Part shown: positions 2,662 through 33,698 of the stretch, one piece after another
Layout: the number at the start of each line of letters is the position of its first letter
Position numbering within the stretch: position 1 is the stretch's first letter
From: a virus
Length of the DNA: 38,761 bases
IMG/VR virus record: IMGVR_UViG_3300010397_000037
Coordinates: 1 to 38,761 of that record
Reading direction: 5' to 3' (one strand)
Position numbers and translations under genes: made by a program
The notes under the pieces: model-generated
What the model saw: only the letters and a program-made list of their open reading frames with translations
Told to the model about the DNA's origin: nothing
Databases searched by the model: none

Positions 2662-3309
2662 ATGCACTACTGCCTTGAAATTCTGATGCCACCGACCGAT
2701 GACGTGAAGGCGGCGGTCGATAAGATCCTAGCTCCGTTCAGCGAGAACCACGATGAAGAAGATGGCGCTAACAGAGGCGCTTTCTGGGACTGGTATCAAC
2801 TCGGCGGCAGATATTCAGGCAGCAAGATTGAGGCGGCAGTCGGCGAGGAGAAGCTGTCTGCGTTCCGCGCGGCATTGATGGAGCGCGGCGTCACGATATC
2901 CGGCGTCGTTTGGGGCAAGGAAGAGCTATCGCCGGCTTCGCAAATTCCATCGGTTGATGCGTTATGGCGCGAGATGTGCCCCGGAGCTGGCAGTGTCTGC
3001 CCGCTTTTCAAACACTCCGGTGATCAGATGCCCATGGATGTCTGCCGTCTCGACGAAGTTCCGGAGAAGCTGACGGCGTTCTCGTTCATCCACGCGGCCG
3101 ATGGCTTCGGCAATGCCCTCAGCGCGCAGACGCTGCTGCACAAGACCATCTGGAACGGCGCTACGCATCAGGAGACCACGTGGGACGGCAGCGTGAAGAC
3201 TGCGATCGACCAGGCGATCAAGCAGTGCGAGCACTACAGGGATAAGTACAAGGCGAAGGTGATGCCGCAGCCGGATTGGCTCGTCGTCACGGTCGATTAT
3301 CACTCCTGA
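2662..3309 (+). CDS. Hypothetical protein, 215 aa
   Basis: 215 residues from ATG 2662, with GAGGA at 2649-2653 as ribosome site; an upstream in-frame ATG would add an unlikely arginine- and leucine-rich segment overlapping the previous gene. The protein begins MHYCLEILMPPTDD and has a central FWDWYQLGGRYSG block; such WDW-x-x-x-GGR segments occur in phage and bacterial hypothetical proteins that I cannot link to a function. No signal peptide or membrane segment. Confidence 0.7.
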   Translation: MHYCLEILMPPTDDVKAAVDKILAPFSENHDEEDGANRGAFWDWYQLGGRYSGSKIEAAVGEEKLSAFRAALMERGVTISGVVWGKEELSPASQIPSVDALWREMCPGAGSVCPLFKHSGDQMPMDVCRLDEVPEKLTAFSFIHAADGFGNALSAQTLLHKTIWNGATHQETTWDGSVKTAIDQAIKQCEHYRDKYKAKVMPQPDWLVVTVDYHS

Positions 3310-6400: not shown

Positions 6401-6493
6401 GGATGGTTGGCCGACTGGTAAGGCCCCGGTCTCGAAAACCGAGTGGACGGCTTGTAAACCGTCGAGTGGGTTCGATTCCTACATCATCCGCCA
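6401..6493 (+). tRNA. tRNA-Ser (anticodon CGA)
   Basis: Class II tRNA of 93 bases with encoded CCA. Acceptor GGATGGT pairs with ATCATCC (one G-U); D stem GCC/GGC; anticodon loop CTCGAAA gives CGA, reading UCG; long variable arm GACGG/CCGTC; T arm GTGGG-TTCGATT-CCTAC. The outermost anticodon-stem pair is mismatched (C with A), the other four pair. The long variable arm and anticodon make the serine identity safe. Confidence 0.93.
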
Positions 6494-6494
6494 A

Positions 6495-6584
6495 GGAAGG
6501 TTGCCAGAGTGGCAATGGGTCGGCTTGCTAAGCCGTAGCCGGTCAGCGATGGCCGCGAAGGTTCAATCCCTTCACCTTCCACCA
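6495..6584 (+). tRNA. tRNA-Ser (anticodon GCT)
   Basis: Class II tRNA of 90 bases, one base after the preceding tRNA. Acceptor GGAAGGT and ACCTTCC pair perfectly, discriminator A, CCA encoded. D stem CCA/TGG; anticodon loop TTGCTAA gives GCT, reading AGC and AGU; long variable arm around GCC/GGC; T arm GAAGG-TTCAATC-CCTTC is perfect. As in its neighbour, the first anticodon-stem pair is a mismatch (T with T), a shared oddity suggesting common descent. Confidence 0.93.
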
Positions 6585-6585
6585 T

Positions 6586-6660
6586 GCGTCCGTAGCTCAA
6601 CGGAAGAGCTGTGGTATTCTAGGCCATCGGTTGCGGGTTCGAATCCTGCCGGACTCGCCA
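6586..6660 (+). tRNA. tRNA-Arg (anticodon TCT)
   Basis: Class I tRNA of 75 bases with CCA. Acceptor GCGTCCG against CGGACTC pairs except position 2 (C with T). D arm GCTC/GAGC is perfect; anticodon loop ATTCTAG gives TCT, reading AGA and AGG, rare codons in GC-rich bacteria; T arm GCGGG-TTCGAAT-CCTGC. Its last base is immediately followed by the stop codon of the converging Rz gene, so the two transcription arms meet with no spacer. Confidence 0.9.
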
Positions 6661-17736: not shown

Positions 17737-18636
17737 TCAACCCGCCGGCCAGTTGCCTGCCGGGATATTCCATGGGCCAATGAGAATTGAACTCTGGCGC
17801 GGCGCCATGTTCAGGCGAGGCGCCGACTTGTTCTGAGAAGTGCAGCGCTCCAGCATGTATTGATAGTCGCGCTCCACGATCGACGATTCAAATCCCTTCT
17901 CTTGCCGCCAAAGCTTCTTTGCACCAAGGATCATCAGCGAGTCATCGTAGATGCATGAGTCCGTGTCGAGCGTGAAGCCTGACTTGTTCGAGCCCGTCAG
18001 CGGAATGACCCAGGCATTCGACAGGTACTCAAACGACAGGACCTCTCCATTCGGCGGATTCGGATTCACTGCGAACTTGTCGCCTGCGATACGAAAGCGA
18101 AGCCATGGGCCAGTTGAAACGATGCCGCCCTGCAGATAGCCCCACTGCTGGCTCGTAGCAGGGCCTGCCATGGGCCAATGCTGCGTGCGATCCCATTCAG
18201 TCTGCGGGATCTGCTTTTCCCAATCGCTCGGCAGTGAATAGCGAACCTTGGAGAACGTCACTGCTCCTGAGCCAGAAGTCAGGGCAGCCTGATTCAGCGT
18301 GATCTGCGTAGGGCTATCGACAGACACGATGTCAGCATACGACGGGAGCGACGTGTTCGATGCGTTCCAGTCCGTCGAAAGCTGTGCCGTTGAAGGAATA
18401 CCCGTCATGACCAGCGAGCCGGCCGTCAACGTCCCCGTCGAGTCAAAGGCGCTCGTCGTGAACACGTAGGTCTTCAGCAGTTCCTGCCATTCGAAATCGC
18501 GCGCCAGGTCTTTTCCAAGTCGGTTGATGAAAGAGAAGATCTGCTGAATCTGCGTGTCAGGATTGGAGATAACGGCGTTAGGAGCCGGAAGGCCCAGCTC
18601 GCTAGTGATCTGCTGAACGAGCTGTAGCAGGTTCAC
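17737..18636 (-). CDS. Head-to-tail adaptor-like protein (T7 gp11-type tail tubular A)
   Basis: 299 residues from a GTG start. The first 60 residues are helical (NLLQLVQQITSELGLP, FSFINRLGKDLARDFEW), as in tail tubular A/adaptor proteins that seat on the portal ring; the remainder is beta-rich with a WxxLLKTYVF segment common in the group. Gene order nozzle-adaptor is the usual one. It has no signal peptide. Function is by similarity of layout; the exact family name is less sure. Confidence 0.65.
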   Translation of the reverse strand: MNLLQLVQQITSELGLPAPNAVISNPDTQIQQIFSFINRLGKDLARDFEWQELLKTYVFTTSAFDSTGTLTAGSLVMTGIPSTAQLSTDWNASNTSLPSYADIVSVDSPTQITLNQAALTSGSGAVTFSKVRYSLPSDWEKQIPQTEWDRTQHWPMAGPATSQQWGYLQGGIVSTGPWLRFRIAGDKFAVNPNPPNGEVLSFEYLSNAWVIPLTGSNKSGFTLDTDSCIYDDSLMILGAKKLWRQEKGFESSIVERDYQYMLERCTSQNKSAPRLNMAPRQSSILIGPWNIPAGNWPAG

Positions 18637-18639
18637 GGG

Positions 18640-19185
18640 TTAGGCCTCGGCTGCTTCTTTCCTCGGCCGGCCAGGGCCGCGCTTTTCAGGCTCCGCCTGT
18701 GCGGAAGTCAATGCGGCGAGCTGAGTCTGCATTTCTGCGAGCTGGGCCTTCAGGCCTGCGTTTTCGTCGACTTCTCCCTTGGCCTTTTCGAGTGCACCCT
18801 TAGCCTTGAGTCGCAGCTCCATGGCACCCATGCCGACCTTCTGGCACTGCGTGTCGGTCAGAGTCGACATCTGTTCCACCGTGTGAACGCCGAGGTACTT
18901 CAGGTTGCGGACCTGAGCCGTGGTGACAACCGGCCAATCTTCCAGGCGCCAACCCTTGATCTCTTGCGAAAGACCCGCCTCGAAACGGCCCCACTGCACG
19001 GCAAAGCGCTGCTTGTGATGATCTTCGGCTCGGGTGTCGATCTGGTTGTTGATGTCACCGGGGATGTTGATGCGAACGAACGGGACTTCCACGTGAACCG
19101 GGTAGCCGCGAGCTTTGCTTTCAAACTCGGAGGGCATCGCGCCCATGTAGAACTCGACAAAGAGATTGTCGTCCGTGCGTTGCAT
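18640..19185 (-). CDS. Virion-module protein with C-terminal AT-hook, 181 aa
   Basis: 181 residues. The N-terminal ~65 residues are a beta domain (LFVEFYMGAMPSEFESKARG). The middle (VRNLKYLGVHTVEQMSTLTD) looks like a helix-hairpin-helix unit, followed by an alanine-rich coiled coil and the end EKRGPGRPRKEA, in which GRPRK is an AT-hook that grips the minor groove. It may connect packaged DNA with the head-tail region. Read 3 bases before the adaptor gene and just downstream of a strong terminator hairpin, so it may need readthrough or a separate start. Confidence 0.7.
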   Translation of the reverse strand: MQRTDDNLFVEFYMGAMPSEFESKARGYPVHVEVPFVRINIPGDINNQIDTRAEDHHKQRFAVQWGRFEAGLSQEIKGWRLEDWPVVTTAQVRNLKYLGVHTVEQMSTLTDTQCQKVGMGAMELRLKAKGALEKAKGEVDENAGLKAQLAEMQTQLAALTSAQAEPEKRGPGRPRKEAAEA

Positions 19186-25459: not shown

Positions 25460-25765
25460 TTACGACCCCTCACCAGGAGTAATAAACACGGTTGCCGTCT
25501 CAGTGGCATCACAGATCGACGCAACACCAGTTGCCTCAGGCGGCTTCGTGAAGACCTCGGTATTGCCGGGTCCAACTGGCGTATCTGTAGTGGTGGCCGT
25601 TTGAGCGCCAACACCCCATCGAATGAAAGCCTTATTCGGACCGCCGTTGTATACACGAATCTGAGCGGACTGGATTACCAGCGCACCCGGAGTGTTGGCG
25701 GCAGTCACCGCCAGTCTGACCGTGTTCGCATGGGAAGGCGTGAAAGGCGAGTTCAGTGCTGGCAC
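25460..25765 (-). CDS. Small virion-like protein, 101 aa
   Basis: 101 residues from GTG 25765, which overlaps the terminase stop (TAGTG). Beta-rich with VRLAVTAANTPGALVIQSAQ, IRVYNGGPNKAFIRWG and TVFITPGEGS; this pattern occurs in small phage proteins that I take for head or neck ornaments. It ends two bases before the next start. No catalytic motif. Structural function is inferred only from composition and place. Confidence 0.6.
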   Translation of the reverse strand: MPALNSPFTPSHANTVRLAVTAANTPGALVIQSAQIRVYNGGPNKAFIRWGVGAQTATTTDTPVGPGNTEVFTKPPEATGVASICDATETATVFITPGEGS

Positions 25766-29348: not shown

Positions 29349-29829
29349 CTTTCAGATGCTGACCGGAGATGATCCCGGCTTGACCCTAGGATTGCGCCTA
29401 GGCCATGCTCCATCTACCCCGCCACAGGGTCACTGATCGTCGAGCTACGTCTACTAACTGCGTTAGTCGCCATCGGGGGCTAGCCGGGAGGCTGCACATC
29501 ATCACTGTGCACTCAGCATCTGAAAGAACTCTGTTCTGGAGGCAGGTCTTGATACCTGCTATTGAACTAGGCTGGCTTCGATCCAGCGCCCTAAGCTTGG
29601 CAGCCTCGCTCTACCTGACTGAGCTACTATTTCCACTCGCCCGATTTCTTGCCAGTCCTCGGGTCCGCTGCGTGTCCTTCCATGCCGCTCCAGAACAGAA
29701 TTCTCTGAATGCTTTGTGTTGCTCCCCTTTGCGGGTATCGGTTCAGAGCAACTAGAGAGCCGGGCCTTGCCAAGAAATTTCGCGTTTCCGCGTTTGCTCT
29801 TATCTCAGCGCACCGAGCAACACAAAGCA
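29349..29829 (-). ncRNA. Large structured non-coding RNA, three stem-closed domains
   Basis: The 529-bp gap at 29328-29856 has no plausible gene. The leftward RNA folds into three tandem domains. Domain I: 15-bp stem 29829-29815/29724-29710, with inner AGAGCAA/TTGCTCT, a CGCG-GAAA-CGCG GNRA hairpin and CCC-GCAAA-GGG. Domain II: 17-bp stem 29704-29688/29541-29525 with one U-G pair, enclosing a tRNA-like fold and hairpin GCAGGT-ATCAAG-ACCTGC. Domain III: 14-bp stem 29526-29513/29362-29349, with hairpins TGCACA/TGTGCA, ACTAAC/GTTAGT, CCTAGG/CCTAGG and CCGG/CCGG. Five unpaired bases separate I and II; II and III abut. Such ornate architecture recalls phage RNAs like GOLLD and ROOL, but identity is untested. 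A promoter-like element places the 5' end at domain I. Confidence 0.8.
29563..29633 (-). ncRNA. tRNA-like domain lacking an anticodon
   Basis: 71 bases in the leftward RNA. Acceptor GAAATAG/CTAGTTC (one A-G mismatch), U8-A9, D stem GCTC/GAGC with loop AGTCAGGTA containing the invariant GG, variable loop AGGGC giving the G15-C48 pair, T arm GCTGG-ATCGAAG-CCAGC with C56, G57 and A58, discriminator A. The anticodon stem AGGCT/AGCTT pairs fully (one G-U) but its loop is GCCA, four instead of seven bases, so no anticodon can be presented. A replaces T at position 54, and ATA stands where CCA would be. It cannot decode; it may recruit RNase P or tRNA-binding factors, or serve as a structural strut. 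Confidence 0.75.
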
Positions 29830-29838
29830 CTCACCTAC

Positions 29839-29867
29839 ACTATGCCGTATTCCTCTTCATAACGCAA
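29839..29867 (-). promoter_or_regulatory. Candidate promoter of the structured RNA
   Basis: TTGCGT (29867-29862) and CATAGT (29844-29839) are separated by exactly 17 bases. The predicted start, about seven bases on, falls at 29832-29830, one to three bases before the closing stem of domain I. The hexamers match consensus at only three and four of six bases, so the element is weak or activator-dependent; its position is the main support. It overlaps the end of the nuclease gene. Confidence 0.4.
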
Positions 29868-32898: not shown

Positions 32899-33698
32899 CA
32901 CTTGGCACCCCCGAAGATGTCGCCGGTAGGCGATGGCTTGCTTCGATCATGCAGCCACTCGGCCTTGAAGCTCTGCCATCCGCGTTCGGTGCTGATGCGG
33001 ATCGCTTCAGCCACGCTCAACTGCGCCTTCTTGGCTTCGCGCAGGATGGCGTCCCACGCGGTTCCCGTGAGGACTGCCTTCTTTGCCTTCCGAATTGCGA
33101 GCCAGTCTTCGGCGACCTTCAGGTCAACACCTGCGGCCGTCAGGTCCGCCTTGGTGAGCAGCCTGCTGCGTGTGCTTCTCTTCTCTTCTTCTGCTTCTGC
33201 TTCTTCTTTGGTGACGGAACGTGACGCGTCACGCGTGACGGTGTTCGTGTCACGCGTGACGGACGCCGAAGCCTGCTGCGCTTTTCGCTCCCGATATCGG
33301 GCCGATCGGACAGCGGCGCCCATGTCCTTGTCGCGGTACTTCATGTAGTTCAAGACCACATACCCGCCATCGACACGGACGAGGCGGCGGCCCTCAAAAT
33401 CGCTCGAACGACTCTCGGGATCCGGTGCGCCGAGCTTCTCGAGGGCGTCCATGCCGGCAGCCTGATCCGCCATCGACATTCGCACGATGCCAGGGCCGGC
33501 GGCCTGCACGAAGCCGTACCAGCCTGGCGGCACGACGAAGCCGGTCTGCTCCAGCGATCGCACCTCGAACTGAGGCATCGGCTCGCGGATCTCGATCGGC
33601 TGCGCCATGAGAAGAGCGGTGATGAAAACGTCGCGCGGCTCGCGCTCGACCCAAAGCGTGGAGTTGAGGATTCCACAGTCCAATTTGACGAATGCCAT
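32898..33698 (-). CDS. Replication initiation protein (lambda O-type), 266 aa
   Basis: 266 residues. The N-terminus MAFVKLDCGILNSTLWVERE and the downstream WYGFVQAAGPGIVRM and RLVRVDGGYVVLNYMKYRDK are characteristic of phage replisome-organiser/initiator proteins. A linker rich in Ser, Thr and Glu (SVTRD repeats, then EEAEAEEEKR) follows, ending in a helical C-terminus. Four palindromic sites lie in or beside the gene, three under the linker, so the protein probably binds its own gene, as lambda O does. Confidence 0.85.
   Translation of the reverse strand: MAFVKLDCGILNSTLWVEREPRDVFITALLMAQPIEIREPMPQFEVRSLEQTGFVVPPGWYGFVQAAGPGIVRMSMADQAAGMDALEKLGAPDPESRSSDFEGRRLVRVDGGYVVLNYMKYRDKDMGAAVRSARYRERKAQQASASVTRDTNTVTRDASRSVTKEEAEAEEEKRSTRSRLLTKADLTAAGVDLKVAEDWLAIRKAKKAVLTGTAWDAILREAKKAQLSVAEAIRISTERGWQSFKAEWLHDRSKPSPTGDIFGGAK
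33175..33260. other. Probable replication origin: iterons plus pyrimidine tract
   Basis: Inside the initiator gene, GTGACGCGTCAC (33221-33232), GTCACGCGTGAC (33228-33239) and a second GTCACGCGTGAC (33249-33260) are 12-bp perfect palindromes; an extra GTGAC half-site lies at 33211-33215. They are next to a 36-base almost pure pyrimidine run (33175-33210), which could be the strand-opening element. The layout copies lambda ori: iterons inside the initiator gene beside a purine/pyrimidine tract. Confidence 0.75.

Follow-up and report, generated by a model that had tools for sequence, protein, structure and literature searches.

The window analysed here is a stretch of viral DNA of 38,761 nucleotides (IMG/VR record IMGVR_UViG_3300010397_000037, positions 1 to 38,761), and it contains at positions 29,349 to 29,829 a gap of 481 bases between genes, which raises the question of what such a gap encodes. 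The first-pass annotation had proposed a structured and probably new phage RNA in the leftward transcript, a proposal that is strongly supported by the compensatory changes occurring in relatives. What the gap encodes is a series of structured RNA modules, and of these modules at least two fall into large phage families not described before. The parts of this RNA and its candidate promoter are as follows.

29349-29829, minus strand: whole three-module noncoding RNA, delimited by its stems and fold
29839-29867, minus strand: candidate sigma-70 promoter; -10 CATAGT (29839-29844), 17-nt spacer, -35 TTGCGT (29862-29867)
29710-29829, minus strand: domain 1, with a 15-bp closing stem and an inner part without assigned type
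29815-29829 and 29710-29724, minus strand: arms of stem 1, 15 bp, perfect
29527-29704, minus strand: domain 2, a type I module with a 17-bp closing stem (model R1)
29688-29704 and 29527-29543, minus strand: arms of stem 2, 17 bp, with one U.G pair on the minus strand
29670-29685, minus strand: type I hairpin A, GCAUG GAAGGA CACGC, with one A.C mismatch in the stem
29560-29669, minus strand: variable insert of domain 2, 110 nt
29563-29633, minus strand: tRNA-like element in this insert (Rfam tRNA, 42 bits, no CCA)
29542-29559, minus strand: type I hairpin B, GCAGG UAUCAAGA CCUGC
29349-29526, minus strand: domain 3, a type II module with a 14-bp closing stem (model R2)
29513-29526 and 29349-29362, minus strand: arms of stem 3, 14 bp, perfect
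29494-29510, minus strand: type II hairpin A, GCACA GUGAUGA UGUGC, after the 3-nt linker AGT
29380-29493, minus strand: variable insert of domain 3, 114 nt
29362-29379, minus strand: type II hairpin B, GCCGG GAUCAUCU CCGGU

A direct check of the inverted repeats on the minus strand found the three tandem stems of 15, 17 and 14 bp where the first-pass annotation had placed them, together with the single U.G pair that it had noticed in stem 2, and the few or no bases that it had described between the domains amount to 5 nt between domains 1 and 2 and 0 nt between domains 2 and 3. Across all 38,761 bases of the window, only five inverted repeats are perfect over 12 bp or more within a span of at most 400 bases; three of the five correspond to stems 1 to 3, in tandem inside 481 nt. 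The two others, of 15 and 13 bp, are located at 18588-18751 and 33227-33261, respectively. The 481-nt RNA of the minus strand folds with a calculated energy of -191 kcal/mol (z -3.5), a value equalled by none of 100 shuffled sequences. The plus strand folds almost equally well (z -3.8), so that folding energy is uninformative on the strand; the sense strand emerges from the family-wide count of wobble pairs in the frame helices, where 47 G.U against 13 A.C favour the minus strand. The description of the gap as the only large one of the genome was too loose, since a tRNA cluster occupies positions 6401-6660 of the window (plus strand), with the three genes Ser(CGA), Ser(GCT) and Arg(TCT).

Depending on the domain, the modules belong to distinct types. 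Model R1 matches domain 2 at 29534-29695 with 78.9 bits (E about 1e-15), the window being one of the 100 seed sequences of this model; hairpin A, preceded there by the 2-nt linker CG, exposes a loop that is almost invariant across the family. Model R2, built from a seed of seven sequences from which the window was excluded, has its only window match in domain 3 (29355-29520, 67.6 bits, E=4.5e-18), a member of a second family built on the type I plan. An assignment of domain 3 to type I, with an insignificant R1 match (9.7 bits, E=0.17), was superseded by the type II model. Domain 1 matches neither R1 nor R2, and a stem much like its own encloses a type II module instead in L488, the orthologous locus. 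The candidate promoter, a comparatively weak one (position-specific score 7.3), lies 9 nt before the stem and would place the start approximately at the first base of domain 1. In L488, 42 nt of this region show 88% conservation, with TATAGT as -10, and the candidate was absent from a stricter consensus scan of the window.

The type I family was recognized from loci fetched by their terminase protein, in which long inverted repeats upstream of the terminase had inner ends matching domain 2. They share GCGGCGTNGAAGGANACGC, which follows the 5' stem arm, and GCNGGTATCAAGNCCNGC, which precedes the 3' arm; scanning viral contigs with each motif gave at least 120 matches per motif, and pairing of the motifs gave at least 121 copies with distinct frames. 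Type I is an RNA family outside Rfam 15, present in well over 100 viral contigs. Each module consists of a closing stem of nearly any sequence, a linker of 2-3 nt, hairpin A, an insert, hairpin B and the second stem arm. Among 100 aligned copies, the closing stem and hairpins A and B are paired in 97.6% of cells, against 74.2% in shuffled and 29-42% in slid versions, and the covariation score reaches 0.58 against 0.12 for shuffled sequences. As many as 16 of the 18 pairs change on both sides, including all eight closing-stem columns, each with several pair types. This covariation is decisive, and the computation establishes both the family and its architecture. The perfect closing stem measures 7-9 bp in 72 of the 121 listed copies, with a lesser group at 16.

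Model R1 recovers most of the motif loci. It also finds copies, none of them annotated as RNA, in the following named phages: Caulobacter phage DMCA (an isolated phage of the laboratory host strain CB15; module at 25553-25687), Pseudanabaena phage Pan3, Komagataeibacter phage phiKX1, Alcaligenes phage QDWS595 and Acidovorax phage AP1. A stringent pattern retrieved ten bacterial genomes, of which nine belong to Alpha- or Betaproteobacteria and the tenth is a Verrucomicrobiota MAG. In the phylum of one of these ten, 4 of the 398 genomes sampled are matched by R1, among them the pattern-positive genome itself. The type I consensus query found no match among complete E. coli genomes. Where hosts can be recognized, the frame occurs for the most part in phages of Alpha- and Betaproteobacteria, and there are also cases with links to a cyanobacterium and to a Verrucomicrobiota genome. 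Protein coding was rejected, a conserved reading frame overlapping only 5 of 118 listed copies. BLAST of the window RNA against phages and plasmids returned short hits only, and a published description of these modules was not found in the literature searched, in which subscription journals were thinly covered. As to the earlier comparison with GOLLD and ROOL, cmscan against Rfam, both with the gathering score and up to E<=5, gave no match of the window RNA to GOLLD, ROOL or OLE, and the sole known family returned is tRNA, inside domain 2. Rfam scans at further loci were likewise used to reject a known RNA family. Instead of a single ornate RNA resembling GOLLD or ROOL, the locus holds several distinct modules, of different types, one after another, with no support for membership of these Rfam families.

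Hairpin B of domain 3, used as a scan query before motif pairing, led to type II, whose family and architecture are both established computationally: a stem, an AAT-like linker, GCGCAGUGAUGAUGCGC, the insert and GCCGGGAUCAUCUCCGG. Loops A and B of type II are complementary over 5 bases (GAUGA/UCAUC), and in domain 3 the UCAUC of loop B likewise faces the GAUGA of loop A; random loops of such lengths would show a complementarity of 5 bases with a probability of about 1%. The loop change observed in L200 is ambiguous because a second register pairs too. In type III, loop A reads GGCUGA and loop B AGAUCAGCA, again complementary over five bases (GCUGA/UCAGC). In L488, the flanking proteins are 87% and 67% identical to those of the window in their best segments and the upstream DNA is 88% conserved; this locus keeps the outer stems of domains 1 and 3 of the window, but around a type II and a type III module. 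Both type III loops of L488 have changed together, to GGUCGA and AGAUCGACA (GUCGA/UCGAC), whereas mixed pairs of L488 and standard loops match at only two bases, which is a clean compensatory loop change. Type III is based on roughly a dozen modules together with this single compensatory change. Loops A and B of type I share only 2-3 complementary bases, so that a loop contact remains putative in this type. As to arrays, a further closed domain of at least 10 bp occurs within 30 nt downstream of 16 of 111 copies (window included) and of 9 of 333 random positions, and in L094, L111 and L163 a type III-like module comes directly after type I.

The inserts, of 41 to 254 nt, differ from one phage to another to such an extent that only 11 of 7,260 pairs among the listed copies are similar, three self-overlaps included. 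Their replacement in type I is established by L024 and L098, in which flanking proteins 82-96% identical lie at nearly equal distances and the frames are 96% identical, around inserts of 51 and 113 nt whose similarity is at chance level. Inserts have been replaced likewise between L102 and L109 and between L024 and L027; they are kept in the pairs L109/L193 and L101/L180, and replacement is therefore frequent, not constant. Downstream of the swapped insert, L024 (about 3140-3245) and its counterpart in L098 share about 100 nt nearly identical in sequence (CACCCAACAACGTGARGCATATTACTAGG...), possibly a further constant RNA domain. The inserts of L189:5177-5316 and L288:10861-11010 are 90% alike over 51 nt in different frames, which may reflect a transfer of payload. 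Inserts fold barely better than shuffled sequence (mean z -0.35 vs -0.11 for controls).

The tRNA model matches three inserts only, those of the window, L289 and phage Pan3. The window element scores 42 bits for a cut-off of 29, and the Pan3 match is partial (34.9 bits). The anticodon arm is shortened in the elements of the window and L289; in the alignment, that of the window forms a 6-nt loop on a 4-bp stem, not the 7-nt loop and 5-bp stem of a functional tRNA, and ARAGORN makes no tRNA call there. The other inserts scanned match nothing in Rfam, most of them being devoid of any known resemblance, and tRNA genes were unmatched in 30 of 44 records searched, which leaves a general link to tRNA unproven. 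A VIPR guide RNA was discarded as a candidate, repeated GGY-NN units occurring in 0 of 121 inserts.

An exchange of payload under a fixed frame suggests a changing target, and we tentatively favour the possibility that the modules are interchangeable trans-acting RNA cartridges, in which a constant frame carries an exchanged payload engaging host factors, perhaps as decoys in defence. Each module would be closed by a stem of nearly indifferent sequence, at the base of which the two conserved hairpins would meet via their loops to form the constant frame displaying the insert. The RNA would have a promoter of its own, with transcription beginning at the stem's first base, or would be transcribed as part of an operon, and would probably be trimmed to the stem. 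Selection would keep the frame while related phages exchange the payload. The weak folding of the inserts, the detection of tRNA-like payloads in three inserts only, the 2-3 complementary loop bases of type I and the ambiguous loop change of L200 count against this reading. As to partners and function, a trans role during infection appears most likely, with the payload binding a host factor, perhaps as a decoy for host defence or tRNA-handling proteins; some payloads look like tRNAs that lack the usual anticodon arm, and the link of a given insert to a given host defence is putative. A broader version, which we regard as rather doubtful, would see a superfamily of such cartridges in tailed phages, with at least three frame types, a loop-locked frame, rapidly exchanged payloads neutralizing defence or tRNA-handling factors, and an array in which the fixed stem positions stay while modules of different types are shuffled between them. 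To our knowledge, known RNA designs do not include a conserved frame whose insert is different in nearly every phage. Should the payloads act on host factors, they would represent an RNA counterpart of phage anti-defence proteins as well as a natural display scaffold.

Copies lie between genes and are mostly co-directional with them (same strand 59 vs 15 upstream and 59 vs 24 downstream), with terminase, repressors and recombination proteins among the neighbours. A rival reading is a cis-acting leader at the head of an operon, either a put-like antitermination element as in HK022 or a 5' stabilizer or attenuator. Sigma-70-like sites, 25 of which fall in the bin 0-9 nt before the stem against 3-11 in each other bin, put the start at the stem. 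The share of copies with a same-strand gene beginning within 90 nt is 31% (33 of 106), against 16% of control positions (29 of 186), which leaves room for a cis role, and the RNA lies on the same strand within 3 kb upstream of the large terminase in 5 of the 19 phages with a detected large terminase, as it does in the window. A leader nevertheless seems unlikely to us: 24 of the 83 copies that could be scored have their next conserved gene on the other strand, the RNA of Caulobacter phage DMCA faces convergent genes, and replacement of the insert would be hard to explain. A conserved cis-regulated gene was also sought and rejected, the downstream proteins being unrelated to one another. A C-rich Rho signal downstream was likewise rejected, the composition matching that of the surroundings. 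The frequent position upstream of the terminase, the usual single copy per genome and the complementary loops of types II and III, which could equally act between molecules, would also suit an analogue of the phi29 packaging RNA, whose loops would gather several copies on the terminase. Most copies are, however, far from the terminase, payload swapping is left unexplained, and L002, a close relative with a helicase 95% identical to that of the window, has different small genes where the RNA would sit, and the RNA is therefore dispensable; the window RNA gave no Rfam match to phi29 pRNA, and we consider a packaging role very improbable.

Loop complementarity, together with the phage location, would also be consistent with an assembly RNA of the GOLLD/ROOL sort, whose loops would join copies into a cage or array with the insert enclosed or displayed, especially as GOLLD in some cases has tRNAs in its linker and uses RNA contacts to assemble (PMC12286853). 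The modules are, however, below GOLLD in size, at about 90-300 nt, and the lack of a match in Rfam also speaks against this reading, which has a low probability, comparable to that of the leader. A base-pairing small RNA, with the insert as antisense regulator and the frame as a mere stabilizer, would agree with the standalone promoter-like sites and with inserts that are weakly folded and different in each phage; in 39% of inserts, against 16% of shuffled ones, a helix anchored immediately before hairpin B scores at least 6, and this enrichment argues against such a regulator, which we hold to be highly unlikely.

The cartridge reading can be compared with several known systems. GOLLD and ROOL are likewise large structured noncoding RNAs of phages and prophages, of unknown function and with constant and variable parts, but the modules described here are small and separable, with another conserved core, swappable inserts and no Rfam match except tRNA. 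A lead is offered by tRNA and tmRNA, whose cloverleaf order and spacing recur in type I: a stem, a 2-nt linker, hairpin A with GG in its loop, the insert in place of the anticodon arm, and hairpin B with U-C-R-A in its loop, followed after 0 nt by the stem. Type I differs from them by an 8-nt loop B, the lack of CCA, a stem of 6-24 bp and an arbitrary insert; the full T-loop signature is lost in types II and III, and the frame is unmatched in Rfam. Bacterial Y RNAs (YrlA) combine a long stem with a tRNA-like module, as do the phage modules, which nevertheless have no Rfam match to them; a Y RNA acting with a phage-encoded Ro60 was rejected, TROVE (Ro60) proteins occurring in 0 of 38 carrier or related records. 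Phage tRNAs rescue phages from retron or PrrC defence provided that they have the right anticodon (PMC11555353). As the payloads here may be, these are tRNA-shaped phage RNAs directed against host defence, but they are working tRNAs, whereas the tRNA-like payloads here have no normal anticodon arm.

Some further observations were made at related loci. A second widespread motif, TGACAGCCGGGAAAGACCGGC, has at least 120 matches in viral contigs and may be another phage RNA; model R1 did not detect it as type I. It was noted at L144:4951-4971, near position 3001 of L301, and in L303, L305, L306 and L308; the phages mEp390, Alexa, P7641, ESP2949-1 and Pokken have it in noncoding gaps, in some cases close to tRNAs. 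Large-terminase matches with internal stop codons occur in L302 (DMCA), L208, L307 and L322; the DMCA match (696-2351) contains 5 TGA, which may be an alignment effect or recoding. Known RNAs also lie close to type I modules: a tmRNA in a viral contig (L163:3426-3728, beta and permuted tmRNA models) just upstream of one, an abiF RNA match (L119:7856-7891, 41.1 bits) about 12 nt downstream of another, and an int-alpA RNA match (L098:2275-2347) in the same region as a type I and a type III module.
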